Shown: piece after piece, positions 2,690 to 48,515 of the stretch | Layout of the letters: every line of letters begins with the position of its first letter | Numbering within the stretch: the stretch's first letter is position 1 | Origin: Lautropia sp. SCN 69-89 | GTDB taxonomy: Bacteria; Pseudomonadota; Gammaproteobacteria; Burkholderiales; Burkholderiaceae_E | Reading direction: 5' to 3' | Assembly (NCBI GenBank): GCA_001724855.1 | Contig: MEED01000004.1 | Span: 1-52,031, forward strand | DNA length: 52,031 nucleotides | Notes under the pieces: model-generated | The model's input: only the letters and a program-made list of their open reading frames with translations | Told to the model about the DNA's origin: nothing | Database searches by the model: none | Translations under genes and position numbers: made by a program

Positions 2690-4204
2690 TTGAACGCCTC
2701 CACCCTCGTCCAGAAACTCTGGAACTACTGCAACGTCCTGCGCGACGACGGGATGAGCTACGGCGACTATGTCGAACAGCTCACCTACCTGCTCTTCCTG
2801 AAGATGGCGGACGAGCGCTCGCGCCCGCCCTGGAACCAGCCCAGCCCGATCCCCGCGGCCTATGCCTGGCCGACGCTGCTGAGCCGCGACGGCGACGAGT
2901 TGTTCGACCACTATCGCCACGTGCTCGACGCGCTGGGCAACGAGAAGGGCACCCTCGGGCTGATCTTCAACAAGGCGCAGAACAAGTTCCAGGACCCGGC
3001 CAAGCTGCGCCGGGTGATCGTCGACCTGATCGACAGGGAGAACTGGTCCACGCTCGACGCCGACGTGAAGGGCGACGCCTACGAGGGCCTGCTCGAGAAG
3101 AACGCGCAGGACACCAAATCGGGCGCCGGCCAGTACTTCACCCCGCGCCCGCTGATCCAGGCGATGGTCGACGCGATCGCGCCCGGGCCCGGCGATACGA
3201 TCTGCGATCCGGCCTGTGGCACCGGCGGCTTCCTGTTCACGGCGCACAACTACGTCGTTGGCCACCACCCGAACCTCACGAAGGACGAGAAGCGCCATCT
3301 CAAGGAAGGCGCCTTCGTGGGCTGGGAGCTGGTGCAGGCCACGGCCCGGGTCTGCGCGATGAACCTGCTGCTGCACGGCATCGGCTCCGAGAAGAGCGTG
3401 CCGGTGAAGGTGGCCGATGCGCTGGCCGCCGATCCGGGGCAGCGATTCGAGGTGGTGCTGGCCAATCCGCCCTTCGGCAAGAAGAGCAGCACGATGATCG
3501 TGGGCGAGGACGGCCGCGCCTCGACCGAGAAGGACATCGTCGAGCGCGACGACTTCTGGGCCACGACGTCGAACAAGCAACTCAATTTCGTGCAGCACAT
3601 CAAGACGCTGCTGAAGATCAACGGCCGCGCCGCTGTGGTCGTGCCCGACAACGTGCTGTTCGAGGGCGGTGCCGGCGAGACCATCCGCCGCAACCTGCTG
3701 CACGAGTGCGACGTGCACACGCTGCTGCGCCTGCCCACGGGCCTGTTCTACGCGCAGGGCGTGAAGGCCAACGTGCTCTTCTTCGACAAGAAGCCGGCCA
3801 GCGAAACGCCGTGGACGAAGAAGCTCTGGATCTACGACCTGCGCACGAACAAGCACTTCACGCTGAAGACCAATCCGCTGAAGCGCGAAGACCTCGACGA
3901 GTTCGTGCACCTGTACAAGCCGGCCAACCGGCATGACCGCAAGCCGACCTGGTCCGAGGCGCCGGACTCGAGATCCGGTGCAGGCCCAGACGGCCGCTGG
4001 CGGGCCTACGACTACGATGAGCTGATCGCCCGCGACAAGGCCAGCCTCGACATCTTCTGGCTGAGGGACGAAAGCCTGGCCGATTCGGACAATCTGCCGC
4101 CGCCCGACGTGATCGCGCGCGAGATCGTCGACGATCTGGAGGCAGCGCTGGAGCAGTTCAGGTCGATTGCGGAGGATCTTGGGCCGCAGGTCGAGACGGA
4201 GTAA
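2690..4204 (+). CDS. hsdM: Type I restriction-modification system methyltransferase subunit HsdM
   Basis: About 504 residues from the TTG at 2690, where family similarity begins (NASTLVQKLWNYCNVLRDDG). An in-frame GTG at 2585 would add a 35-residue His/Ser-rich leader encoded by tandem repeats; it has a distant GGAAG, whereas the TTG has no clear ribosome site, so the start is uncertain. Residues 1-140 form the HsdM N-terminal helical domain. The N6-adenine methyltransferase domain follows, with the AdoMet motif DPACGTGGF near residue 175 and the catalytic NPPF near 260. The C-terminus (DIFWLRDESLADSDNLP) looks complete. HsdM normally works as M2S with HsdS for specificity and with HsdR for cleavage. 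Neither partner is found downstream; what follows is a restriction-gene remnant. Partners could lie upstream of the window. Confidence 0.93.
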   Translation: MNASTLVQKLWNYCNVLRDDGMSYGDYVEQLTYLLFLKMADERSRPPWNQPSPIPAAYAWPTLLSRDGDELFDHYRHVLDALGNEKGTLGLIFNKAQNKFQDPAKLRRVIVDLIDRENWSTLDADVKGDAYEGLLEKNAQDTKSGAGQYFTPRPLIQAMVDAIAPGPGDTICDPACGTGGFLFTAHNYVVGHHPNLTKDEKRHLKEGAFVGWELVQATARVCAMNLLLHGIGSEKSVPVKVADALAADPGQRFEVVLANPPFGKKSSTMIVGEDGRASTEKDIVERDDFWATTSNKQLNFVQHIKTLLKINGRAAVVVPDNVLFEGGAGETIRRNLLHECDVHTLLRLPTGLFYAQGVKANVLFFDKKPASETPWTKKLWIYDLRTNKHFTLKTNPLKREDLDEFVHLYKPANRHDRKPTWSEAPDSRSGAGPDGRWRAYDYDELIARDKASLDIFWLRDESLADSDNLPPPDVIAREIVDDLEAALEQFRSIAEDLGPQVETE

Positions 4205-4209
4205 CGGAG

Positions 4210-4327
4210 ATGTCGAGCAAGCGTGTCTGGAAGGATCTACCTGGTCGGCACGATTGCGAGCGAGTATCTGTACGACCCGAAGATCATCGGCGATTACCCG
4301 AACGTCCGGCGGGTGGAATGGCAGTGA
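4210..4327 (+). pseudogene. Remnant of an Mrr-type restriction system gene
   Basis: Five bases after the hsdM stop, an ATG (4210) with an upstream GGAG opens MSSKRVW, like the start of Mrr-family 'restriction system' proteins. From 4235, in another frame, the sequence reads IYLVGTIASEYLYDP and then YPNVRRVEW before a TGA at 4325-4327, like the end of the small PUA/EVE-like domain of those proteins. The part between is missing and the halves are out of frame, so this is a deletion scar. The family assignment rests on about 37 residues and is tentative. Confidence 0.55.
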
Positions 4328-4340
4328 TTCCGCAGTATTG

Positions 4341-4390
4341 CGATTTACTCATGACGTTGAGTAAAATTACTCAACGTCATGAGTAAATCG
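4341..4390. promoter_or_regulatory. Perfect 50-bp palindrome with two TTACTCA-N6-TGAGTAA dyads over a start codon
   Basis: Arms of 24 bp (4341-4364 and 4367-4390) match perfectly around a 2-nt centre. Each arm is itself a dyad of TTACTCA, six bases (TGACGT or ACGTCA) and TGAGTAA. The ATG of the DUF4143 ATPase (4379) lies inside the right arm and no Shine-Dalgarno sequence precedes it. The structure could be an operator for a dimer pair, an mRNA hairpin hiding the start codon, or a mobility-related end; the sequence does not decide. Confidence 0.85.
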
Positions 4391-5581
4391 TTCGCCCCCT
4401 TCCAGCGGCCGCATGCGGCGGTCCTTGCACGCCGTCTCGCCGAGCCGCGGCGCTTCCTCCAGGTCGTTGCCGGCCCGCGGCAGGTGGGCAAATCGACGCT
4501 GGTGCAGCAGGTCACCGATGCCCTGGCCCTGCCGGTCCGCTACGCCAGCGCCGACGAGCCGACCTTGCGCGGCGCCGGATGGATCGGTCAGCAGTGGGAG
4601 GCAGCGCGGCTCGAGGCTGGCCGATCCGGGGCGGTGCTCGTGCTCGACGAGATCCAGAAGATCCCGGGATGGTCGGAGACGGTGAAGCGCCTCTGGGACG
4701 AGGACACGCGGGCGCGGCGCCCGCTCAAGGCGGTGCTGCTCGGCTCGGCGCCGCTGCTCGTTGCAGACGGCCTGACCGAAAGCCTTGCCGGCCGCTTCGA
4801 GGTGCTGCACCTTCCGCACTGGGCATTCGTCGAAATGCGCGAGGCCTTCGGCTGGTCGCTCGAAGAGTACCTGTTCTACGGCGGTTACCCGGGCGCGGCG
4901 CCGCTCATCGGAGATTCCGGTCGCTGGGCGCGCTACGTTGCAGACAGCCTGATCGAGACTTCGATCGCGCGCGACGTGTTGCTGCTCACACGGGTCGACA
5001 AACCCGCCCTGCTGCGCCGGTTGTTCGAGCTTGCCTGTCGCTACTCGGGTCAGGTGCTCTCTTACACGAAGATGCTCGGCCAGCTCCAGGAGGCGGGGAA
5101 TACGACCACGCTCGCGCACTATCTCGACCTGCTCGCCGGCGCGGGCATGGTGCGGGGTCTGCCGAAGTACGCGGGGGACGCGGCGCGCATTCGCGGCTCC
5201 AGCCCGAAGCTGCAGGTTCTGAACACGGCGTTGATGACCGCCACTTCCGGGCTGACCCTCGACGAGGCCCGTGCAGACCGCGAGTTCTGGGGCCGACTGG
5301 TCGAATCGGCCATCGGCGCGCATCTGGCGAATGCCGCGGCCGCCGGCCGCTGCGAACTGTTCTACTGGCGCGAGCGCAACCATGAGGTCGACTTCGTCGT
5401 GAAGGTCGGTCGGCGCTTGCTCGCGGTCGAGGCGAAGAGCGGCCGCGCTCCGCCGGTCCACGCGGGGACGGAAGCCTTCGTGCGATCCTTCAGGGTGTAC
5501 CGGAGCCTGCTGGTCGGTGGTGACGGCATACCGGTCGACGATTTCCTGTCGAAGCCCGTGGCCCACTGGGCTGCGCCATGA
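4379..5581 (+). CDS. DUF4143-family AAA ATPase
   Basis: 400 residues. Walker [10 protein letters not shown] is at 32-40 and Walker [10 protein letters not shown] near 86-94, followed by a GSAPLL sensor-like motif. The C-terminal DUF4143 domain (about 190-380) contains [14 protein letters not shown] and AVEAKSG, the acidic/Lys pattern seen in PD-(D/E)XK-like folds. Length and motifs look intact. The family is widespread and patchily distributed, often in accessory regions, with no settled function. The start is fixed by the palindrome: ATG 4379 is the first in-frame start and encodes MSKS from the right arm. No ribosome site is visible, so translation may be leaderless or structure-controlled. 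The next ATG (5578) overlaps its stop, but the real downstream start is 5626. Confidence 0.88.
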
Positions 5582-13317: not shown

Positions 13318-13352
13318 CGGCCCCGATCATCGCCGATCCGCCGCCGAACGCC

Positions 13353-20854: not shown

Positions 20855-21144
20855 CTCCGCGCCAGGCTCCGAGCGGCGACGACGCGAACCGTGGCGCGCG
20901 CGGGCTGCTCGTCGACGTCGAAGCGGATCTCCTGCGAGGCCAGCTCCAGGCCATCGACCCGGGCCTCGCAAAGCTCGGCGACCGCCTTCACCGCCGCCAG
21001 ATGCTGCGCAGCCAGGCCGGGCCGCGCCCTGCGTGCGCGGATGTTCGTCAGGTGCACGGCCCTGCCGGTGATCGCCGCGAGCGCGACCGCGGTGCGCAGC
21101 AGCTGGCCGCCGCCTTCGCCGGTGGAGCCGTCGACGTCGGTCAT
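20851..21144 (-). pseudogene. rtcA: RNA 3'-terminal phosphate cyclase, truncated (N-terminal fragment)
   Basis: 97 residues against about 340 for complete RtcA. The N-terminus is clear: [58 protein letters not shown], matching the first 75 or so residues of RtcA. After this an unrelated tail of about 20 residues runs to the stop. The catalytic His of RtcA lies near the C-terminus and is lost, so the product cannot be an active cyclase. The gene was cut and joined next to glgP. No rtcB is visible. Confidence 0.75.
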
Positions 21145-21233
21145 CGTGGGCGGTCGGTCAGGTCGGGTTCGGCGCCCGCGCTTCATGTTACGCCGTACCC
21201 GTGGGCCGTCGGTGCGGGGAGGACTCTCCCCGA

Positions 21234-21262
21234 TTGACCAGTCGACGACCGGTGGCTACGCT
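21234..21262 (+). promoter_or_regulatory. Candidate sigma-70 promoter for the ABC transporter operon
   Basis: TTGACC (21234-21239), a 17-nt spacer and TACGCT (21257-21262), 70 nt before the ATG of the binding-protein gene. A perfect hairpin GGGGAG-gact-CTCCCC (21216-21231) lies just upstream. Confidence 0.45.
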
Positions 21263-21331
21263 GCCGTGGCTCGCGTCGACCGGGCGCACAAGACGAACGG
21301 GTGCCCGAGGCGCACCGGAGGGGAGCAGAAG

Positions 21332-22672
21332 ATGAACAAGATGCTTGTGGCACGAATTCGCACCTCGCTTGCATTCGCGCTGGCCTGCGCTGCGCTGGCG
21401 CCCGGGCTGGCCTGGTCCCAGTCCGTCACGGTGGTCACGTCGTTCCCGAAGGAGCTCACCGCCGCCTACAAGGCCGCCTTCGAGAAGGTCAATCCGGGCA
21501 CGAAGGTCGAGATCCTGAACAAGGGCACTTCGGCGGGCGTCGCCTACACGCGCGAGGCGCCCGCCGGCAGCCGACCCGACGTGTTCTGGGCCTCGGCGCC
21601 CGACGCCTTCGAGGTGCTGGCCAAGGACGGGTTGCTGGAGAAATACGACCCCGGCGTCAAGGGCATCCCGGACAAGATCGGCAACTACCCGATCAACGAC
21701 CCGCAGGGCTACTACCGCGGGCAGGCGCTGGCGGGCTACGGAATGATGTGGAACACGCGCTACATGAAGGCGCACAAGCTGCCCGAGCCGCGCGAGTGGG
21801 CCGACCTGGCCAGGCCGGTCTATTTCGGTCACGTCGCGATCTCTTCGCCGTCGCGCTCGGGCACCACGCATCTCACGGTCGAGACGATCCTGCAGGGCGA
21901 GGGCTGGACGAAGGGCTGGTCGCAGATCCTGCAGATCGCCGGAAACTGCGCGGCCGTCACCGAGCGCAGCTTCGGCGTGCCCGAGGGCGTGACCAACGGC
22001 CAGTACGGAATCGGACTGGTGATCGACTTCTTCGGGCTGGCGGCGCAGGCCTCGGGTTTTCCGGTGGGCTTCGTCTATCCGTCGGTGACCGCGATCGTGC
22101 CGGCCAACATCGGGCTGGTGGCTGGCGGCAAGTCGCCCGAGATGGGCAAGCGCTTCATCCAGTTCACGCTGTCGCCGGCCGGGCAGGAGCTGCTGCTCGA
22201 TCCGAAGATCAGCCGGCTTCCGGTGCTGCCGGAGACCTACCGCAAGGCGCCGGCCGGCTTCCCCGATCCGTACGGCGGCAAGATCAAGGCCAAGGTGAAC
22301 TTCGACTCGCATGCTTCCGAGCGCCGCTACTACCTGGTGTCGTCGCTGTTCGACCAGACGATCACCTTCCGCCACAAGGAGCTGGTCGCGGCGACGAAGG
22401 CGATCGACGAGGCGGCAGCGCGCCTGGCGCGCAAGCCGAACGCCGACGGCGAGAAGCTGCTGGCCGAGGCGCGTTCGCTCGCGTTCATGCCGGTGGTCGA
22501 CGAGGCGAAGATGAAGGACGACGGCTTCGTGGCGGTATTCCGCGACACCAAGCGCGACGCGGCCAAGCAGAAGCAGATGACCGCCCTCGAGGAGCACTGG
22601 GGCAACGAGGCGCGCCGCAACTACGAGCGCGCCGCCGAGCTGGCGAACAAGGCCGCCGCGACGGCCCGATAG
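21332..22672 (+). CDS. ABC transporter substrate-binding protein (Fe3+/PgtC-like type)
   Basis: 446 residues from ATG 21332, supported by GGAGGGGAG upstream and a signal peptide ending GLAWSQ; longer open frames upstream lack homology. The mature part begins VTVVTSFPKELTAAYKAAFEKVNPGTKVEI, with RPDVFWASAPDAFEVLAKDGLLEKY, AGYGMMWNT and SPSRSGTTHLTVETILQGEG typical of the AfuA/PgtC group. A C-terminal extension of about 110 helical residues follows the binding domain. The ligand could be iron, a phosphonate or a phosphoester; not decidable here. First gene of a three-gene operon. Confidence 0.88.
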   Translation: MNKMLVARIRTSLAFALACAALAPGLAWSQSVTVVTSFPKELTAAYKAAFEKVNPGTKVEILNKGTSAGVAYTREAPAGSRPDVFWASAPDAFEVLAKDGLLEKYDPGVKGIPDKIGNYPINDPQGYYRGQALAGYGMMWNTRYMKAHKLPEPREWADLARPVYFGHVAISSPSRSGTTHLTVETILQGEGWTKGWSQILQIAGNCAAVTERSFGVPEGVTNGQYGIGLVIDFFGLAAQASGFPVGFVYPSVTAIVPANIGLVAGGKSPEMGKRFIQFTLSPAGQELLLDPKISRLPVLPETYRKAPAGFPDPYGGKIKAKVNFDSHASERRYYLVSSLFDQTITFRHKELVAATKAIDEAAARLARKPNADGEKLLAEARSLAFMPVVDEAKMKDDGFVAVFRDTKRDAAKQKQMTALEEHWGNEARRNYERAAELANKAAATAR

Positions 22673-22682
22673 GGAAGCGCCG

Positions 22683-24364
22683 GTGCCGCGCTTCGGCGTG
22701 GCGATCGCCGCGGTAGCGCTGGCGATCGCCGCCTTCCTCGTCGTCTTCCTGATCGTTCCGGTCGTCACCGTCGTCTGGGCGGCGTTCGCGACCCCGCAGG
22801 GCGGCTTCACGCTCGCGCACCTGGCGGGATTCTTCTCGCTGTCGCTGATGCGCGAGTCGTTCGCCAACAGCCTGTACGTGGCGGCGATGACGGTGCTCTT
22901 CGCGACGATCGTCGCGGTGCCGCTGGCGTACTTCACCGTGCGCTTCCAGTTTCGCGGCGCGATCCTGGTGCAGACACTGGGCGTGCTGCCGCTGATCATG
23001 CCGGCCTTCGTCGGCGCGGCCGCGCTGCAGCTGCTGTTCGGGCGCTCGGGCTCGGTCAACCTGCTGCTGGGCGAGTGGTTCGACCTGACCATCCCGGTGA
23101 TGGAAGGGCTGAACGGCGTGATCTTCGTGGAGACGCTGCACTACTTCCCGTTCATCCTGCTGAACCTCTCGGTCGCGCTGAACAACATCGACACGGCGAT
23201 GGAGGAGGCGGCGCAGAACATGGGGGCTTCGGGGCTGCGCCTGTTCCGTCGCATCGTCTTTCCGCTGGCGCTGCCTGGCTACGTGGCGGGGGCCTCGCTG
23301 GTGTTCATCAAGGTGTTCGACGACCTGGGCACGCCGCTGGTGCTCAACGTGACCAACATGCTCGCGCCGCAGGCGTACCTGCGCGTCACCTCGATCGGCC
23401 TCGAAGATCCGATCGGCTACGTGATCTGCTTCATCCTGGTGTGCTTCTCGGTGGCCGCGATGGCCGGATCGACGATGTTCCTGCGCGGGCGCGATTTCGC
23501 GACGCTGCAGCGCGGCGGCAGCTCGTTGCTGCGCCGCCGGCTGCATCCCTGGCAGTCGGCGCTCGCCTATGCGTGGATCGGCGCGATCCTGCTGCTGGTG
23601 CTCTCGCCGCACGTCGGCGTGCTGCTGCTGTCGTTCTCGAAGGTCTGGAGCTACAGCGTGCTGCCCGACGTCTACACGCTGGAGAACTACGCCACCGTGT
23701 TCGCCGACTCGACGCGGATGATCTGGAACACGATCCTCTACTGCGGCGCGGCGGCGCTGATCGACGTGGTGATCGGCACCGCCATCGCCTACCTGGTGCT
23801 GCGCACGCGCCTGCCGGGCCGGCAGCTTCTCGACCACATGGCCACGGTGGCGCTGGCGATGCCCGGCGTCGTGCTGGGCATCGGCTACCTGCGCACGTTC
23901 AGGGAAGTGGAGCTGCCGTTCAGCGGCACCCTGCTCACGTCGAGCTGGCTGATCTTCGTGCTCGCGTATTCGGTGCGGCGGCTGCCCTATGCGCTGCGCT
24001 CGTGCATGGCGGCGCTGCAGCAGGTGCACATCTCGATGGAGGAAGCGGCGCAGAACCTCGGTGCGCCGCGCGGCCGCGCGATCCGGCGCATCGTCGTGCC
24101 GCTGATGGCCGGCGGCATCCTGGCCGGGTTCGTCACCAGCTTCATCACCGCGGCGGTGGAGATTTCGGAGACGATCCTGCTCACCAGCCGCGAGAGCCTG
24201 GCGCCGATGTCCTATGGCATCTACCTTTACATGCAGTCGATCGTCGGGCGCGGGCCGGGGGCGGCGCTCGGCGTGATCGCGGTCGCGGTGGTGGCGCTGG
24301 GCACCTATGCGTCGCACCACTTCGTCGCGTCGCGGCAGGCGCACAACATCGCGAGGAGAGGCAC

Positions 24365-24368
<4 letters not shown>
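22683..24368 (+). CDS. ABC transporter permease, two fused membrane domains (FbpB-like)
   Basis: 561 residues from GTG 22683, 10 nt after the binding protein. About 12 membrane segments in two BPD_transp_1 halves. Each half carries its EAA loop: MEEAAQNMGASGLRLFRRIVFPLALPG near residue 180 and MEEAAQNLGAPRGRAIRRIVVPLMAGG near 455. Fused permeases of this kind accompany AfuA/FbpA-type binding proteins. The stop overlaps the GTG of the ATPase gene. Confidence 0.93.
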
Positions 24369-25426
<1,058 letters not shown>

Positions 25427-25569
25427 TCCGCCGGTTCGCGGCGCCATCTGCCGGTTTTCGGCGTCATCCGCCTGCGCCGCGCCATCGGGTTGAGCTACAT
25501 CATGTTGCCCTTGCCGGCCCGGCGCGATCCTCGACGGTTCCTCCGAACGAAAAACGTCAGGGAAACGCC

Positions 25570-25953
25570 ATGACCGCTCTCGACCCCGCCGCCCGCGAAC
25601 TCCTCGAAAAGGCCGAGTTCGTCGCCATCGTCACGCAGGGGCCCGACGGCCCGCATCTCGTCGGCAACTGGTGCGACTATGCGCGGCGGATTGGCATCGA
25701 CGACGAACGCATCGTCTTTCCCGCGGGCCACTACGAGCGCACCGAGGAGAACCTGAAGCGCGACAGCCGGATCCAGCTGATGGCGGCTTCGCGCGCGGTG
25801 CGCGGATCGCGCGGACCCGGACAGGGCGGCGTCATCCACGGCAAGGGCAGCGTGCAGGTCGAAGGCGAGCTCGCGGCCCGCGCGAAGGCGGTGTTTCCGT
25901 GGGCGCGCGGGGCGCTGGTGATCGAGGTCGAGCGCTGCGAGATGCAGCTGTAA
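25570..25953 (+). CDS. Pyridoxamine 5'-phosphate oxidase family protein
   Basis: 127 residues from ATG 25570 (CAGGGAAA upstream). A split-barrel flavin-binding fold is suggested by ARELLEKAEFVAIVTQGPDGPHLVGNW, RIVFPAGHYERTEENLKRDSRIQLMAAS and GKGSVQVEGELAARAKAVFPWARGALVIEVER. Short members of this family bind FMN or F420-like cofactors with varied or unknown substrates. It stands alone, 143 nt after the ABC operon. Confidence 0.8.
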   Translation: MTALDPAARELLEKAEFVAIVTQGPDGPHLVGNWCDYARRIGIDDERIVFPAGHYERTEENLKRDSRIQLMAASRAVRGSRGPGQGGVIHGKGSVQVEGELAARAKAVFPWARGALVIEVERCEMQL

Positions 25954-26052
25954 GGCGCCGTCGGCCCTTGGCTTATTCGCAGCGGCTCGGCTGCGCGGTC
26001 GACGTCGCGTGGTCGATTGAGATGCAGGCGGGCCGCTGCTAAGCTGCCACGC

Positions 26053-26400
26053 ATGGGATCGTTTTCGATCGCTCTCCTCGAAGCCCTGGTGTCGGCCGGG
26101 GTGTCCACCGAGCGTGCCCGGGCGGTCGTCGACCTGCTCGATCGCTCGATCGACGAGCGTTACAGCCTGCATGCCGAGGTTCCGGCCACGAAGCGCGACG
26201 TCGCGGCGTTGCAGGCCGAAACGGTCCGCAGCATCGCCGAACTCGAGGTCCGGTTGACGCGCGACATTGCGGCGAACGGCGCCAGCATTGCCGGCCTGCA
26301 ATCGCGCATTGCCGAGACGAAGGTCGAGCTCATGAAGTGGATGCTCGCGGCGCTCACGGCCCAGACGGCGCTGATACTCGGCGTGATGAAGCTGGTCTGA
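26053..26400 (+). CDS. Small coiled-coil protein with C-terminal membrane anchor (DUF1640/CCDC90-like)
   Basis: 115 residues from ATG 26053. Residues 1-50 are helical (LLEALVSAGVSTERARAVVDLLDRS). Residues 50-95 form a coiled coil with heptad-like spacing (TKRDVAALQAETVRSIAELEVRLTRDIAANGASI). A single hydrophobic segment (MLAALTAQTALILGVMKLV) ends the protein. This layout matches bacterial DUF1640/CCDC90-like proteins. Function unknown. Confidence 0.65.
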   Translation: MGSFSIALLEALVSAGVSTERARAVVDLLDRSIDERYSLHAEVPATKRDVAALQAETVRSIAELEVRLTRDIAANGASIAGLQSRIAETKVELMKWMLAALTAQTALILGVMKLV

Positions 26401-26758
26401 GCAAGCCGCATATGCGCGGTACCCACGCCCTTGGCTGCTTGATATCCAGACAAGATGGCGATCGATCGAGCAAATAGAGCTATCTTGTGGCTCGTTTCCA
26501 CGTTGATCGTCTCGACTTCGTTGCGCGCTGTTGCTCGAACCGTGCTGAAAACGATTGATTGACCGATATTCGGACATAGCCCGCTCCTCGCCTGTCCGAC
26601 TATCGGACGAACGCCGCTTGTGCGACCTCAGCAGGCTCCCGCGATCCCTTCCCCGTCGGGTACTTGCCGGAGCCTGCCTCGCTGGCACGCCACTTGCGTG
26701 CTCCCATGGCAGTTCTCGCCCGCAGGCGGGCTCCCAGACACTCACGAGGAGAGACTCC
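26401..26758. other. 358-bp gene-free, lower-GC regulatory stretch
   Basis: No supportable gene. It holds a stem-loop (ACAAGATGGC near 26450 pairing with GCTATCTTGT ending 26488, one mismatch) after the coiled-coil gene, then two similar dyads (separate entry) and a GAGGAGAG ribosome site just before ATG 26759. It is visibly richer in A and T than the neighbouring coding DNA, as expected of a promoter region. Confidence 0.7.
26561..26608. promoter_or_regulatory. Paired operator-like dyads upstream of the livK-livM chimera
   Basis: GACCGATATTCGGAC (26561-26575) and GTCCGACTATCGGAC (26594-26608) share the pattern CCGA-N3-TCGG plus GAC on the right. Their centres are 33 bp apart, about three helical turns, so two dimers could bind on the same face. 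They lie about 150-200 bp before the start codon. The binding regulator is not encoded in the window as far as I can tell. Confidence 0.6.
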
Positions 26759-28501
26759 ATGCAGCTTTTCCCGCTCCTGAAGCGTGCCAGCCGCTACGCG
26801 TTGCCGCTGATGGCCGGCGCGATGCTGGCCGGCGCGGCCGTCGCGAAGGACATCCGGATCGCCCACGTCTACTCGAAGACCGGTGCGCTGCAGGCCTACG
26901 GCGCGCAGACGCAGACCGGGCTGATGCTGGGCTTCGACTACGCGACCGGCGGCACGATGATGGTCAACGGCCGCAAGATCGTGCTGATCGAGAAGGACGA
27001 CCAGGGCAAGCCCGACGTGGGCAAGGCGCTGCTGCAGGCGGCCTACGCCGACGACAAGGTCGATCTGGCGATCGGCCCGACCTCGTCGGGCGTGGCGCTC
27101 GCGCTGCTGCCGGTGGCCGAGGAGTACAAGAAGATCCTGCTGGTGGAGCCGGCGGTGGCCGACTCGATCACCGGCGACAAGTGGAACCGCTACATCTTCC
27201 GCACCGGCCGCAACTCGTCGCAGGACGCGATCTCGAACGCGGTCGCGCTCGACAAGGAAGGCGTGTCGATCGCGACGCTGGCGCAGGACTACGCCTTCGG
27301 CCGTGACGGCGTGAAGGCCTTCAAGGACGCGCTGAACAAGGCGAAGATCGTCCACGAGGAATACCTGCCCACCAACACCACCGACTTCACCGCCGGCGCG
27401 CAGCGGCTGTTCGACGCGCTGAAGGACAAGCCGGGCCGCAAGGTGATCTTCATCATCTGGGCCGGCGCGGGCAACCCGTTCAAGATCGCCGACCTCGATC
27501 CGAAGCGCTACGGCATCGAGATCGCCACCGGCGGCAACATCCTGCCGGCGATGGCCGCCTACAAGGCGTTCCCCGGCATGGAGGGCGCCACCTACTACTA
27601 CTTCGACATCCCGAAGAACGCCGCCAACAACTGGCTGATCACCGAGCACTACAAGCGCTTCAAGTCGCCGCCCGATTTCTTCACCGCGGGCGGCATGGCC
27701 GCGGCGATGGCGGTGGTCGAGGCGCTGAAGAAGACCGGCGGCGACACGAAGACCGAGGCACTGATCAAGGCGATGGAAGGCATGAGCTTCGACACGCCGA
27801 AGGGCAAGATGACCTTCCGCAAGGAAGACCACCAGGCGATGCAGTCGATGTATCACTTCCGGATCAAGAACGACCCGGCCTTCCCCTGGGGCGTGCCCGA
27901 GCTGGTGCAACCCTCGTTCGAGCTGTTCGAGGACACGGTGCTCGGCGTGTCGATCGACGGCCGCCTGCTGTCGTACTACCTGCTGTTCTTCGTCGTGCTG
28001 GTGCTGTTCCTGGTGCTGTTGCGCATCGTCAACTCGCCGTTCGGACGCGTGCTGCAGGCGATCCGCGAGAACGACTTCCGTGCCGAGGCACTCGGCTACC
28101 GCACCGTCGTGTACCGCACGCTCTCGACGGTGCTGGCGGCGGTGTTCGCGACGATGGCCGGGGCGCTTCTGGCGATCTGGCTGCGCTACAACGGCCCGGA
28201 CACGACGCTGTCGTTCGAGATCATGCTCGACACGCTGCTCATCGTGGTGATCGGCGGCATGGGCACGATGTACGGCGCGGTGATCGGCAGCGCGCTGTTC
28301 GTGTTCGCGCAGAGTTACCTGCAGGACCTGATGGGCTGGATCTCGGCCGGCTTCGAGGGCGTGCCGCTCGTCGCCGCGCTGTTCTCGCCCGATCGCTGGC
28401 TGCTCTGGCTCGGCGTGCTGTTCGTGCTGTCGGTCTACTACTTCCCGACGGGCGTCGTCGGCAAGCTGCGGGCGCGCGCGCTCGCGCGGAGGCGGCCGTG
28501 A
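26759..28501 (+). CDS. Chimeric branched-chain-type ABC protein: LivK-like binding protein fused to the C-terminal half of a LivM-like permease
   Basis: 580 residues from ATG 26759 (GAGGAGAG upstream, signal peptide ending AGAAVAKD). Residues 25 to about 380 are a periplasmic binding protein of the amide/branched-chain amino acid family (IRIAHVYSKTGALQAYGAQTQ, ATLAQDYAFGRDGVKAF, MYHFRIKNDPAFPWGVPELV). Where such proteins end, the frame continues into FELFEDTVLGVSIDGRLLSYYLLF, SPFGRVLQAIRENDFRAEALGYRT and LIVVIGGMGTMYGAVIG, the second half of a LivM permease. The join is near 27900-27912. The livH, livG, livF genes and the first half of livM normally in such operons are absent. A protein whose secreted domain ends in a half permease is unlikely to transport. 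Its stop overlaps the next gene (GTGA). Confidence 0.88.
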   Translation: MQLFPLLKRASRYALPLMAGAMLAGAAVAKDIRIAHVYSKTGALQAYGAQTQTGLMLGFDYATGGTMMVNGRKIVLIEKDDQGKPDVGKALLQAAYADDKVDLAIGPTSSGVALALLPVAEEYKKILLVEPAVADSITGDKWNRYIFRTGRNSSQDAISNAVALDKEGVSIATLAQDYAFGRDGVKAFKDALNKAKIVHEEYLPTNTTDFTAGAQRLFDALKDKPGRKVIFIIWAGAGNPFKIADLDPKRYGIEIATGGNILPAMAAYKAFPGMEGATYYYFDIPKNAANNWLITEHYKRFKSPPDFFTAGGMAAAMAVVEALKKTGGDTKTEALIKAMEGMSFDTPKGKMTFRKEDHQAMQSMYHFRIKNDPAFPWGVPELVQPSFELFEDTVLGVSIDGRLLSYYLLFFVVLVLFLVLLRIVNSPFGRVLQAIRENDFRAEALGYRTVVYRTLSTVLAAVFATMAGALLAIWLRYNGPDTTLSFEIMLDTLLIVVIGGMGTMYGAVIGSALFVFAQSYLQDLMGWISAGFEGVPLVAALFSPDRWLLWLGVLFVLSVYYFPTGVVGKLRARALARRRP

Positions 28502-29310
28502 GCGCGCGCCGGCCGCTGGTGCGGGTCTCGCACGCCGGCGCGGTGGCCACGCTGACGCTGGCGCGCCCGGCGATGCGCAACGCGCTGGTGCCCGACCTGC
28601 TGCTCGACCTGTGCGTGGCGCTCGAGGAAACCGCGAGGCGCGGCGACACGCGCGCGGTGATCCTCGCCGCCGACGGCGACGCGTTCTCCATCGGCGGCGA
28701 CATGCGTCGCTTCGCCCGCGAGATGAAGGGCAGCGCGCTCGAAACCTACGCGGCCGAACTGGTCGGGCTGCTGAACCAGTCGATCCTGTCGCTGCTCAGG
28801 TTGCCGCAGCCGGTGGTCGCGGCGATGCACGGCCTGGTCACCGGCGGTTCGGTCGGCCTGGTGCTGGCCAGCGACGTCGTCATCGCGGCCGACGACGCGG
28901 CCTTCAAGGCGCACTATGCGAGCGCCGGTTTCACCCCCGACGGCGGCTGGACCGCGCTGCTGCCGGCGCTGGTCGGGCGACGGCGCGCGGCCGCCTGCGT
29001 GCTGCTGAACCGCACGGTGAGCGCGGCCGAGGCGCAGGCCTGGGGCATGGTCACGCAGCTCGCGCCACGCGAGCAGGTGGCGGCGCTGGCGCGCGAGGCG
29101 GCCCAGCGCATCGCGGCCGCGCCGATCGGGACGATGCGCGAGGGCAAGCGCCTGCTGGCCGGCGATCTCGACGCGGTCGAGCGGGCGCTCGAAGCCGAGC
29201 GGCAGCGCTTCGTCGCCGCGATCGGCGGCGCCGAGGCGCGCGAGGGCGTCGCGCGCTTCCTGCGCACTTTCACCGGCTATCCCGACGAGGCCGTGGCGCA
29301 ACGCGCCTGA
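28498..29310 (+). CDS. Enoyl-CoA hydratase/isomerase family protein
   Basis: 270 residues from GTG 28498, overlapping the preceding stop by 4 bp. Crotonase-fold motifs: VATLTLARPAMRNAL, FSIGGDMRRFA for CoA binding, and AAMHGLVTGGSVGLVLASDVVIAADDAAFKAHYASAGFTPDGGWTALLP for the oxyanion hole and active-site region. The usual second catalytic Glu position is occupied by Asp-Gly (TPDGG), seen in many isomerase-like members. It belongs to the acyl-CoA operon with the ligase and MaoC-like genes. Confidence 0.9.
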   Translation: MSARRPLVRVSHAGAVATLTLARPAMRNALVPDLLLDLCVALEETARRGDTRAVILAADGDAFSIGGDMRRFAREMKGSALETYAAELVGLLNQSILSLLRLPQPVVAAMHGLVTGGSVGLVLASDVVIAADDAAFKAHYASAGFTPDGGWTALLPALVGRRRAAACVLLNRTVSAAEAQAWGMVTQLAPREQVAALAREAAQRIAAAPIGTMREGKRLLAGDLDAVERALEAERQRFVAAIGGAEAREGVARFLRTFTGYPDEAVAQRA

Positions 29311-29339
29311 CGGCGGCCGGATCGGTCAGCGAGCGAGCC

Positions 29340-30920
29340 ATGTACGTCGTCGACTGGTTGCACAAGCAGGCCCAGCACCATCCGGACCGGCCCGCGCTGG
29401 TCGACAGCGCCAGCGGCGAGGCACGCAGCTACCGGCAGGTGAACGAGCGTGCCAGCCGCTTCGCCGAACTGCTCATCGCGCGCTGGCGACTGCCGCCGGG
29501 CGCCAGGGTCGCGGTGCTCGCCGGCAACTCGGCCGACTACCTCGAAATGCTCTATGGCTGCGCGAAAGCGGGCGTGGTCATGGTTTGCCTGAACTGGCGG
29601 CTGCCGGCCGGCGAGCTGGCGCCGATCGTCGACGATGCGCAGCCGCAGGCCTTCGTCTGCGGCGAGGAGTTCCTCGCGGTGGCCGCGACCGTGCTCGCGG
29701 GCCGCGCGCCGCTGCCGGGCCTCGTCGTGCGCGGCGCGCCGGGTGCGAAGGAGGCGCGGCCGGCCGCGGGGACGCCGCCGGGGCGCCATCGCGAGTTGTC
29801 GGCCTGGCCCGATTACGAAGCGGCGCTCGAATCCTCCAGCGGGCGCATCGTCGAGATGCCGTGCAGGCCGATGGACGAGGCCTGGTACCTGCTCTACACC
29901 TCGGGCACCACCGGCAAGCCGAAGGGCGTGATCCAGACCTACGGCATGGCGTTCTTCAACGCGGTGCACGCGATGCTCGCCACGAAGCTCTCGGGCGACG
30001 ACGTGCTGCTGGCCGCGCTGCCGTTCTTCCACACCGGCGGGCTGAACCTGTACGCGAACCCGATCCTGTTCGCCGGGGGCACCGTCGTGGTGATGCGCCA
30101 GTTCGACGCCGGCGAGGCGCTGCGCTGGCTGGAGACGGAGATCACGCAGTTCCTCGGCGTGCCGGCGGTCTACCTGTTCATCGCCCAGCACCCGCGATTC
30201 GCCGATGCGCGATTCGCGAAGATGCGCCACTGGTCGGCGGGCGGCTCGCCGATGCCGCTGGCGCTGCTGGAGACCTGGGCGAAGAAGGGCGTCACGATCT
30301 GCTTCGGCTTCGGCATGACCGAAACCGGCCCCACGGTGTTCATTCCCGACGAGGCGACCGCGCGCGCCAAGCCGGGCAGCGTCGGCAAGCCGGTGGGCAC
30401 GATGCTCACCCGCGTGGTCGATGCGCAGGGCCGCGATTGCGCGGCCAACGAGCGCGGCGAACTGCTGATCAAGGGGCCGGGGGTCACGCCGGGCTACTGG
30501 AACAACGCCGAGGCGACACAGGCGGCGATCCGCGACGGCTGGCTGCACACCGGCGACGTCGCGTACTTCGACGACGACGGCGACTACTGGATCGTCGACC
30601 GCCTGAAGGACATGTTCATCTCGGGCGGCGAGAACGTCTACCCGGCCGAGATCGAGAACCTGCTGTACCGGATGCCGGGCGTGGCCGAGGCCGCGGTGAT
30701 CGGCGTGCCCGACCCGAAGTGGGTCGAGGTCGGCCTCGCGGTGATCGTACTCGAGCCGGGCGCATGGCTCGACGAGGCCTCGGTGCAGGCGTATTGTCGC
30801 GAGCGGCTGGCGGGCTACAAGGTGCCGCGGCACGTGCGCTTCGTCGATGCGCTGCCACGCACGCCGGCCGGAAAGGTCGAGAAACCGGCGCTGCGGCAGC
30901 GCTACGCGGGGGGAACGTGA
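29340..30920 (+). CDS. Acyl-CoA synthetase (AMP-forming ligase)
   Basis: 526 residues from ATG 29340. Core motifs are intact: YTSGTTGKPKG (near 184-194), GFGMTETGPT, LHTGDVAYFDDDGDYWIVDRLKDMFISGGENVYPAEIE, and the catalytic Lys in PRTPAGKVEKPAL. It would activate a carboxylic acid with ATP and CoA; long-chain, medium-chain and aromatic acids are all possible. It lies between an enoyl-CoA hydratase and a MaoC-like gene, which fits side-chain or beta-oxidation of an imported acid. Confidence 0.93.
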   Translation: MYVVDWLHKQAQHHPDRPALVDSASGEARSYRQVNERASRFAELLIARWRLPPGARVAVLAGNSADYLEMLYGCAKAGVVMVCLNWRLPAGELAPIVDDAQPQAFVCGEEFLAVAATVLAGRAPLPGLVVRGAPGAKEARPAAGTPPGRHRELSAWPDYEAALESSSGRIVEMPCRPMDEAWYLLYTSGTTGKPKGVIQTYGMAFFNAVHAMLATKLSGDDVLLAALPFFHTGGLNLYANPILFAGGTVVVMRQFDAGEALRWLETEITQFLGVPAVYLFIAQHPRFADARFAKMRHWSAGGSPMPLALLETWAKKGVTICFGFGMTETGPTVFIPDEATARAKPGSVGKPVGTMLTRVVDAQGRDCAANERGELLIKGPGVTPGYWNNAEATQAAIRDGWLHTGDVAYFDDDGDYWIVDRLKDMFISGGENVYPAEIENLLYRMPGVAEAAVIGVPDPKWVEVGLAVIVLEPGAWLDEASVQAYCRERLAGYKVPRHVRFVDALPRTPAGKVEKPALRQRYAGGT

Positions 30921-31840
30921 TGCGCATGGTCACCCAGCGCGACTTCGACCGCTTCGCGGCACTGTCGCGCGACGACAACCCGATCCACTGCGATCCAGCC
31001 TTCGCGCGCGGCACGCACTTCGGTGCCACCGTCGCGCACGGGATGTTCCTCTACGGGCTGATCTGCGGCGCGCTCACGCGCAAGCTCGCAACGCCCTGGT
31101 TGCCGGTTGCGCAGACGCTCGTGTTTCCTGCGCCGACCTTCGCCGGCGACACGGTCGCGGTGCGAGTGGCCTCGCGCGAATCCGCACAGGCGTTCGACGT
31201 GGGCATCGCGGTCGAACGCGACGGGCGGATGACCGATACCGCGATCGGGGAAGCCGTCGTGATGCGCGCCGCCGAGGGGGGTGCCGGCAGATCGGCGAGG
31301 GACGACAGCGAGCCCGACACCTTGCCGCTGGGAACGGGGCCCGACACCGTTCCGCTGGCCGGGCGTTCCGGCTCGATCGAACCGGCTGCGCTCGCGGCGC
31401 CCGATGCCCGGCCAGGGTTGCTGTTCGGCCTGGAGGCAGGCCAGCGCGCGAAGGCGGCGCGCCGCTTCGACGCCGGCGACCTCGACGAGTACGCAGACCT
31501 GTGCGGCGACGCCAACCCGCTGGTCCTGGATGTGGGCGCGGCGCGACGCGCCGGTCTCCCCGCGCGCGTGGTACCCGGCCCGCTGCTCGCGGGCATGTTC
31601 TCCGACCTGCTCGGCACGAAGCTGCCCGGGCGCGGCACCGGATGGATGAAGCAGTCGCTGCGCTTCCTGAAGCCGGCGCATCCCGGCCAGTCGTTGCACG
31701 CGATGGTCGAAGTGGTGCGGGTGCGGCCCGACAAGCAGCTGGTGAACCTGCGCAGCACGGTGCGCGATGTCGGCGGTGCCTTGCTGGTCGACGGCGAGGC
31801 GCTGGTGCTGGTGCGCAACCTGGAGCGCGGGCGCGCCTGA
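30920..31840 (+). CDS. MaoC-like double hot-dog domain protein
   Basis: 306 residues from ATG 30920, sharing one base with the preceding stop (TGATG). The first half carries the (R)-hydratase-like motif ALSRDDNPIHCD and AHGMFLYGLI. A Gly/Asp/Pro linker follows, then a second half with YADLCGDANPLVLD, PGPLLAGMFSDLLG and FLKPAHPGQSL. The catalytic Asp/His pair is seen only in the first half; the second has Leu at the His position. It probably hydrates an enoyl-CoA made by the neighbouring enzymes. Confidence 0.88.
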   Translation: MRMVTQRDFDRFAALSRDDNPIHCDPAFARGTHFGATVAHGMFLYGLICGALTRKLATPWLPVAQTLVFPAPTFAGDTVAVRVASRESAQAFDVGIAVERDGRMTDTAIGEAVVMRAAEGGAGRSARDDSEPDTLPLGTGPDTVPLAGRSGSIEPAALAAPDARPGLLFGLEAGQRAKAARRFDAGDLDEYADLCGDANPLVLDVGAARRAGLPARVVPGPLLAGMFSDLLGTKLPGRGTGWMKQSLRFLKPAHPGQSLHAMVEVVRVRPDKQLVNLRSTVRDVGGALLVDGEALVLVRNLERGRA

Positions 31841-31873
31841 GCACCGGCGCCCGGACGCGCGAGGACGTCGACG

Positions 31874-32674
31874 ATGAACGAGCCAGCCACCACGACACAA
31901 CCGGCTATCTTCTACGGGCACGGCAGCCCGATGAACACGCTCGAGCCGAACCGGCACACCGAGGCGTGGCGGCGAAGCGGCGCGGCAGGGCCGCGTCCGC
32001 GTGCAATTCTCGCGATCTCGGCGCACTGGTACGTCGAAGAAACTGCGGTAACCGCGATGGCGCGACCGCGCACGATCCACGACTTCTACGGGTTCCCCGC
32101 CGCGCTGCACGCGTTCGATTACCCGGCGCCCGGCGACCCCGCGCTGGCCGAGCGGGTTCGCGCGCTGCTGGCGCCGCTGCCGGTGCGCGCCGACCACGAC
32201 TGGGGCCTGGACCATGGTACCTGGTCGGTGCTGGCGCACGTCTACCCCGATGCCGACGTGCCGGTCGTTCAGCTGAGCCTGGATGCGCGGCGCGACGCGG
32301 CGTTCCATTACGAACTGGGCCGTGGGCTCGGCGTGCTTCGCGACGAGGGTGTGCGAATCGTCGGCAGCGGCAACGCGGTGCACCACCTCGGGCTGCTGGC
32401 GCGCCGCGCCGATGCGCCGCCGCACGACTGGGCGCTCGCGTTCGAGGCGCAGGTGCGCGACTGCGTGCTGCGCGACGACGTCGCGCCGCTGATCGACTAC
32501 GAGAGATTCGGCGAGGCGGCGCGGCTCGCGGTGCCCACGCCGGAGCACTACCTGCCGCTGCTGACGGTGCTTGGTGCGCGCCGCCCGGATGACCGGGCGG
32601 CGATCCTGACGGAAGGCATCGAGCTGGGCTCGATCGGGATGCTGTCGTTCGCGCTCGATCGGGCCGCAGCCTGA
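31874..32674 (+). CDS. DODA-type extradiol ring-opening dioxygenase (YgiD family)
   Basis: 266 residues with GAGGA 9 nt before the ATG. Probable metal ligands are His16 (IFYGHGSPMN), His51 (AISAHWYVEE) and the His pair of SGNAVHHLG. Conserved DWGLDHGTWSVLAHVYPDADVPVVQLS and SIGMLSF mark the 4,5-DOPA dioxygenase-like YgiD family, a LigB-type fold using Zn or Fe. The natural substrate in bacteria is uncertain. It follows the acyl-CoA genes by 33 nt and may be the last gene of that operon. Confidence 0.9.
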   Translation: MNEPATTTQPAIFYGHGSPMNTLEPNRHTEAWRRSGAAGPRPRAILAISAHWYVEETAVTAMARPRTIHDFYGFPAALHAFDYPAPGDPALAERVRALLAPLPVRADHDWGLDHGTWSVLAHVYPDADVPVVQLSLDARRDAAFHYELGRGLGVLRDEGVRIVGSGNAVHHLGLLARRADAPPHDWALAFEAQVRDCVLRDDVAPLIDYERFGEAARLAVPTPEHYLPLLTVLGARRPDDRAAILTEGIELGSIGMLSFALDRAAA

Positions 32675-32693
32675 TCGAGCGCGGCGCGACGGA

Positions 32694-33590
32694 TTACTTG
32701 ACCGCGGCCATCATGTGTTCGACGGCCGCCCGCACCTGTGCGTCGGACAGGTTGGCGTTGCCGCCGCGCGGCGGCATCGCACGGATGCCGTCGATCGCGT
32801 GCTTGACCAGCGTGTCTTCGCCGGCGGCGACGCGCGGCGCCCAGGCGCCCTTGTCGCCGTACTTCGGCGCCCCGGCCACGCCAGTGCCGTGACAGACCAT
32901 GCACGAAGCGTCGTAGACCTTCTTGCCCTCTTCGGAGGACGCGGCGCTGGCGGCCGGGGCGGCAGGAGCCGGCGCCGCTGCGGCGGCCGGCGCTGCAGCC
33001 GCAGGAGCCGCGGCGGCCGGTGCAGGAGCCGCAGCCGCAGGAGCTGCAGCCGCCGTCGCGGGTGGCGCGGCCTCCGGTTTCGCTTCGGCAGCCTTCGGCG
33101 CCTCGGCCTTCGGCTCTTCGAACTTGCCGCCGGCCTTGTTGGCCAGGTAGACCACGGCGCGCGTGACTTCGGCGTCGCTGAAGTCGCCCCCGCCCTGCGG
33201 CGGCATCGCGTTCTTGCCCTTGAGCGCCGAAGTCGTCAGCGCCTGCAGACCGGTCTTGATGCGCGCCGACCAGGCGCCCGCATCGCCGATCTTCGGTGCC
33301 CCCGCCACGCCGCTGGCATGGCAGGCCGCGCATTGCGCGTTGTAGACCTGCTCGCCGGTTCTCATCACGGCGGGCGCGCTCGCGTCGCGCAGTTCGAAGC
33401 CGGCCACCGGCTGGATGCGCGTCTCGATCGCCTCCGGCGTCATCGCATCGGCGCCGGCGCCGGTGCGGGTGCTGCTGCCGACGAACTTGACGAGAAGCAC
33501 GATGATCGTGATCGGCACCACGAAGGCCAGCACGATCACGGTGATCAGCTGCCGGGGAGTCTTGATGAATCCTTGGTGTTCGTCGCTCAT
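32694..33590 (-). CDS. Membrane-anchored diheme cytochrome c5-type protein
   Basis: 298 residues. A membrane segment (about 15-36) follows a short cytoplasmic tail. Two class I cytochrome domains bind heme through CAACH (Cys87, Cys90, His91) and CMVCH (near 228), each with a later MPPQGGG or MPPRGG Met ligand region. They are joined by an Ala/Pro-rich linker of about 60 residues encoded by repetitive GCN-rich DNA (about 32940-33080). It should pass electrons in the periplasm, perhaps to a terminal oxidase. Confidence 0.93.
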   Translation of the reverse strand: MSDEHQGFIKTPRQLITVIVLAFVVPITIIVLLVKFVGSSTRTGAGADAMTPEAIETRIQPVAGFELRDASAPAVMRTGEQVYNAQCAACHASGVAGAPKIGDAGAWSARIKTGLQALTTSALKGKNAMPPQGGGDFSDAEVTRAVVYLANKAGGKFEEPKAEAPKAAEAKPEAAPPATAAAAPAAAAPAPAAAAPAAAAPAAAAAPAPAAPAASAASSEEGKKVYDASCMVCHGTGVAGAPKYGDKGAWAPRVAAGEDTLVKHAIDGIRAMPPRGGNANLSDAQVRAAVEHMMAAVK

Positions 33591-48502: not shown

Positions 48503-48515
48503 TCTTTCCTGCCGC

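Follow-up and report, generated by a model that had tools for sequence, protein, structure and literature searches.

An open frame of 580 amino acids in the window, by which we mean the whole stretch of 52,031 nucleotides that was analysed, joins a LivK-like front to a LivM-like back (26759-28501, forward strand), and thereby raises the question of whether it is a working protein, the scar of a lost operon, or a faulty join in the assembly. A sequence-only reading had described this frame as an in-frame chimera of a LivK-like binding protein and half of a LivM-like permease, a description borne out by the open frame, by the Pfam assignments of its two halves, and by a join that can be located at 27896-27908. 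The front (26759-27908, forward strand) is a LivK-like binding protein of the HAAT family with an N-terminal signal region, and the back (27906-28501, same strand) is the C-terminal portion of a LivM-like permease; both assignments are based on Pfam and on comparison with G016, the closest relative as judged by the fusion protein. With reference to the G016 proteins, 383 of 399 LivK residues (all except the last 16) and the C-terminal 197 of 358 LivM residues are kept, with amino acid identities of 98% for the LivK part and of 97% over 196 residues for the LivM part. Residues 32-371 of the fusion correspond to Peripla_BP_6 (PF13458, E = 3e-55), while residues 390-540 align with BPD_transp_2 in its second half only, from profile position 135 to 268 of 269. 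The closest solved structures to the binding-protein part are 3n0x (E = 2.7e-168) and 3nnd (E = 5e-168); a LivM query without the first three codons (nine bases) of its frame had no match among the PDB sequences. According to hydropathy, the kept LivM part starts in a loop ahead of a membrane segment at residues 403-421 and extends to the C-terminal end. We infer that this loop is periplasmic, and that it could accommodate a binding domain on that side of the membrane. The earlier suggestion of a membrane-tethered binding domain fits this topology, as the join precedes the first kept membrane segment; the product itself, and any use of it, are putative.

The same place in G016 is occupied by a whole livK-livG-livF-livH-livM operon (in which we take livG, livF and livH to be so named from gene order and family), followed by the same acyl-CoA genes. 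The two genomes are collinear, with DNA identity of approximately 93% on both flanks (93.6% for window positions 21061-27908, 92.8% for 27895-32674), and between the flanking blocks G016 has the livK end, a region of hairpins, genes for two ATPases and for one permease, and the livM front. The arrangement in the window is that of G016 minus one clean stretch of 3,863 bp (measured on G016, where it corresponds to L032:3588-7450), with loss of the last 16 livK codons, livG, livF, livH and the first 161 livM codons: the comparison makes clear that the sequence is an intact liv operon from which one stretch has been removed. This comparison with a relative carrying the full operon, which the sequence-only reading had proposed, confirms its statement that livH, livG, livF and the front of livM are missing. 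Its estimate of about 3 kb lost in one clean in-frame deletion holds for the clean, single nature of the event and for the open frame, and falls short of the actual size. Three does not divide 3,863, and the frame stayed open because the livK and livM phases happened to be offset by the fitting amount, with about 1 chance in 3. Either alternative offered at the time, deletion of an operon or collapse of the assembly, would give what the comparison with relatives shows, which is exactly such a deletion.

The genes downstream had been called intact and overlapped. All on the forward strand, they comprise an enoyl-CoA hydratase/isomerase gene recognized from its open frame and Pfam (28498-29310), whose GTG start is still overlapped by the livM stop at 28498, an acyl-CoA ligase-like gene (AMP-binding enzyme; 29340-30920), a gene with a MaoC-like dehydratase domain (30920-31840), the frames of all three being open, and a LigB-type dioxygenase-like gene (31874-32674), with which the block collinear with G016 ends.

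A search of the window genome's own assembly with the G016 interval as query, in which the best 40 among 855 first-look candidates received a score, did not find the lost DNA at another place. Among the resulting 73 rows the two flanks match at 95%, the rest are paralogues, and all other matches with at least 79% identity are shorter than 70 bases; the possibility that the lost genes reside on another contig was rejected on these grounds. The fusion protein matches 37 places in the genome at E ≤ 0.001, the fusion locus included, and the 36 others indicate that other systems of HAAT type exist. In G016 itself livG is frame-shifted near L032:4750-4771, with open surroundings; this is likely an indel error, because G016 is a 4-contig assembly with 88% completeness.

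At the join, window positions 27896-27908 (forward strand) read CCCGAGCTGGTGC, and this is a 13-nt direct repeat: G016 has CCCGAGCTGGTGC at the livK end and a copy with one change (12 of 13 positions alike) in the middle of livM, 3,863 bp away. The join retains a single copy of the short repeat, as is characteristic of a deletion between direct repeats; provided that the lost right-hand copy had the G016 sequence, the point of exchange falls within 27906-27908. Repeats of this quality are common in such a GC-rich stretch, as 59 overlapping pairs of 14-mers with at most one mismatch connect livK with the rest of the operon; repeat homology therefore explains the ends of the deletion and does not single out this particular pair.

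The 795-bp gap between livK and livG in G016 contains inverted repeats whose arms measure 61-107 nt at 95-98% complementarity, in addition to two weaker and shorter inverted-repeat pairs at 71%. One such hairpin unit, folded as RNA, has an energy of -299.8 kcal/mol (z = -15.3). A single unit, with arms of 82-86 nt, is present in G006, and hairpins of the lost stretch are absent in G014 and G004. G016 and G006 are the nearest relatives of the window genome by protein identity, so its ancestor probably had the hairpin. In E. coli, long inverted repeats stimulate deletions between short direct repeats, as stated in the report on the DIRex method (PMC5576700). The G016 hairpin starts about 57 bp beyond the left repeat, and the right end of the deletion lies in the middle of livM, about 3 kb away from the hairpins. 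Hairpins of this kind could also spoil sequencing.

These hairpins have features of their own. A core of about 136 nt is found between livK and livG in 6 of the 10 genus relatives that could be measured, sharing 84-98% identity with the first of the G016 cores. The hairpin or core units are located at L032:3644-3954 and 4101-4408 in G016, L033:8051-8358 in G006, L036:3522-3757 in G001, L037:8663-8900 in G002, L038:8360-8495 in G013, and L039:3590-3989 and 4206-4439 in G010; G016 and G010 thus have two copies each, and the core occurs in both orientations. In five of the six core-bearing relatives the core is flanked by arms that are complementary within the unit (88-98%, with 75% in G002). The arm sequences differ among most units, those of the G006 unit and the second G016 unit being alike. 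A whole-genome search of seven genomes with one G016 unit (E ≤ 1e-10, 40 first-look candidates scored per genome) found the element restricted to this place in four of them, and no Rfam match for it was found in G016. It could be an invertible or self-correcting element, and with arms that vary between copies and yet stay complementary it may merit more attention than the fusion.

Is the fusion shared by relatives? Among the 17 other genomes of the genus searched at E ≤ 1e-60, both halves are present in 10, the livM half alone in 3 and neither in 4. The two halves are 3,152-4,014 bp apart in all 10 genomes that have both, none of which carries the fusion, and an ancestral or shared fusion was rejected on this basis. 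We extended the comparison to 91 stretches, consisting of 11 from the genus and the best 80 of 579 confirmed loci, which were reduced to 88 by removal of 3 duplicates. In all 76 stretches that could be measured the halves are 3,020-5,119 bp apart, and the fusion is not found in any; in the remaining 12, livK is either absent or less than 2.4 kb away from the end of the stretch. These 76 stretches are not all independent, since L100 and L101 seem to represent the same strain recorded twice. A 110-residue piece spanning the junction had some match in 34 of 73 other genomes of the family (the 17 genus genomes included), and no match ran across the join in any of the 73. As for plasmids, none of 846 matching records covers 80% of the query in one place; the one two-piece match inspected, record H7, was rejected as a fusion, as it consists of four separate frames of at least 200 amino acids, the longest of 435. 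A literature search on fusions of this kind found no paper on point.

Neither half of the frame has decayed. Between the window genome and G016, synonymous changes number 20 and nonsynonymous ones 5 in the livM part (dN/dS = 0.093), and 37 and 7 in livK (dN/dS = 0.057). For the livM part, 5-9 synonymous changes and at most one nonsynonymous change (0-1) fall on the branch leading to the window genome, depending on which of four outgroups is chosen, and up to 8 and 3, respectively, are left unplaced; by an arithmetic estimate, neutral drift along the whole branch would have produced about twenty nonsynonymous changes in this part. For livK the nonsynonymous changes number 3-5 on the window branch versus 0-1 in G016 (three outgroup choices), too few to weigh. 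A joint alignment of LivK and LivM rows, with the LivM rows at 28-34% identity, was judged misaligned, and an alignment of the LivM rows was used in its place. In view of the undecayed halves, the join should be recent in comparison with the divergence of the window genome and G016, unless it is false or, as the least likely case, has been retained by selection; if it is a real scar, the lack of decay in the livM part implies that it must be young.

The reliability of the assembly is also a matter of concern. It is a draft of 70 contigs with 95.6% completeness, and the sole yidC found in it has a clean, frame-shifting loss of 68 bp in the membrane core of the protein (contig C13 of the window genome, 75300-76959, equal to L175:15300-16959, with the loss at about 76664). 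YidC is essential, and the loss is possibly an assembly error. In 14 of 17 genus relatives yidC gives one match over nearly its whole length and without stops; the exceptions are G012 (two pieces), G015 (pieces on two contigs) and G003 (part only). The yidC join has no repeat comparable to the livK-livM one. At both joins the adjacent base is A in the window genome versus G in G016. On account of the frame-shifting loss in yidC, the clean in-gene joins of this assembly are not all trustworthy.

In a survey of clean joins that amounts to a weak test, 144,649 + 59,962 bases of the window genome, out of 841,532 available, were aligned to the part of G016 that was covered. The in-gene differences recognized were livK-livM, yidC, the gene after yidC, and an mnmC-like frame. 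The gene after yidC (mnmE-like by eye) has an in-frame difference of 81 bp between the two genomes. The mnmC-like gene (also named by eye) is open in the window genome (site at contig C8:84529-84533), whereas in G016 it is interrupted by 1.65 kb of DNA, probably an insertion sequence, associated with a 5-bp repeat. Within the aligned blocks, the window genome has 14 gaps of 15-40 bp and G016 has 8. Within the window itself there are three further clean joins, at 13345-13352, 32674-32695 and 48504-48515, where G016 is longer by 3.2, 6.2 and 3.0 kb, respectively; all are at gene borders, and one comes after a tRNA-like sequence (read by eye). They look natural, as gene-content differences or islands.

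Our preferred interpretation, to which we assign a probability of about 0.5, is a recent, real deletion in the cell of a 3.86-kb stretch of the operon, leaving a scar frame. An ordinary livK-livG-livF-livH-livM operon ahead of the acyl-CoA genes would have been the starting state, from which 3.86 kb would have been removed between two short, near-identical direct repeats, probably by slipped mispairing aided by long hairpins such as those seen between livK and livG in near relatives. With no ATPase, no LivH and half of LivM, the uptake system would be dead. The remaining frame would be a scar, open to the livM stop, and because this stop overlaps the start of the next gene the acyl-CoA genes would stay coupled to the old promoter; survivors in frame may have been favoured, as ribosomes would still reach the livM stop overlapping the hydratase start. 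The product, if made, would consist of a binding domain anchored in the inner membrane and would transport nothing. Occurrence in the cell, slippage, coupling and lack of function are all steps that we infer. A deletion is supported by the collinearity with G016, the spacing of the two halves in the 10 genus relatives, the repeat at the join, the hairpins of G016 and G006, the lack of a close copy of the lost DNA among the candidates scored, and the position of the three other multi-kb differences from G016 at borders between genes, where real changes in gene content would be expected. Against it stand the undecayed livM part, the frame-shifting loss in yidC, the abundance of equally good repeats, and the absence of the hairpin in G014 and G004. 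We favour a deletion slightly over an artefact of the library or assembly, a tentative explanation with a probability somewhat under one half, in which the operon is intact in the organism and 3.9 kb were skipped, either by a chimeric molecule or by an assembly join on a short overlap, close to a hard-to-sequence stretch of hairpins with extreme GC content. The undecayed halves, the state of the draft and of its yidC, the A beside both joins and the closeness of the G016 hairpin to the left repeat are all in keeping with such an artefact; however, usual assembly word lengths exceed 13 nt, and are thus longer than the imperfect repeat, the right end is in the middle of livM and far from the hairpins, the skipped DNA was not found as another contig among the best 40 of 855 candidates scored, and the join in yidC has no comparable repeat.

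That the fusion is kept and working, as a membrane-tethered binding domain acting as a receptor or serving another HAAT transporter of the same cell, we consider very unlikely. The open frame, the low dN/dS of both parts, the plausible topology by hydropathy and the 36 other matching places in the genome would all suit such a protein, but it is found in one genome only, its half permease has neither partner nor ATPases, low dN/dS is equally expected of a very recent or a false join, the slight excess of nonsynonymous changes in livK is too small to weigh, and the AlphaFold model of the fusion is of no use (mean pLDDT = 41.3). We give still less credence to a selected fusion in which the HAAT binding domain, anchored by half of LivM and with its own transporter lost, senses a substrate of the acyl-CoA pathway or passes it to another permease. 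Either of the likely answers, deletion or artefact, is ordinary, and a new kind of receptor is less likely. A young deletion scar would represent, biologically, one more case of transporter loss; the case illustrates that a single deletion, or a single bad join, can give a draft genome an open chimera with recognizable domains, and its exact bases are given here.

These results can be compared with known systems. Both parts of the fusion belong to an importer operon of the HAAT (LivKHMGF/UrtABCDE) type, and in G016 the binding-protein gene is followed at this place by those of two ATPases and then of two permeases. The window locus has a Peripla_BP_6-type binding protein; in place of two whole permeases it has the second half of LivM and no LivH, and the ATPases LivG and LivF are absent at the locus, with no close copy found elsewhere in the assembly (best 40 of 855 candidates). 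Without livG, livF, livH and the livM front it cannot be a working importer. Another comparison is with OpuA, an ABC importer whose binding domain is joined to its membrane domain. GlnPQ (PMC8025302) also has a binding domain and a membrane part in one chain, as in the fusion. Importers of this kind, however, possess a complete membrane domain paired with an ATPase, whereas the fusion has half a domain (BPD_transp_2 positions 135-268 of 269), of another importer family. Finally, with respect to the deletions between repeats in E. coli covered by the DIRex report (PMC5576700), the state before the loss is here taken from relatives, the repeats in G016 are imperfect, and the inverted repeats fill part of the lost stretch; the likeness is that short direct repeats flank long inverted repeats, here in the near relatives, and that one copy of the direct repeat is left behind.
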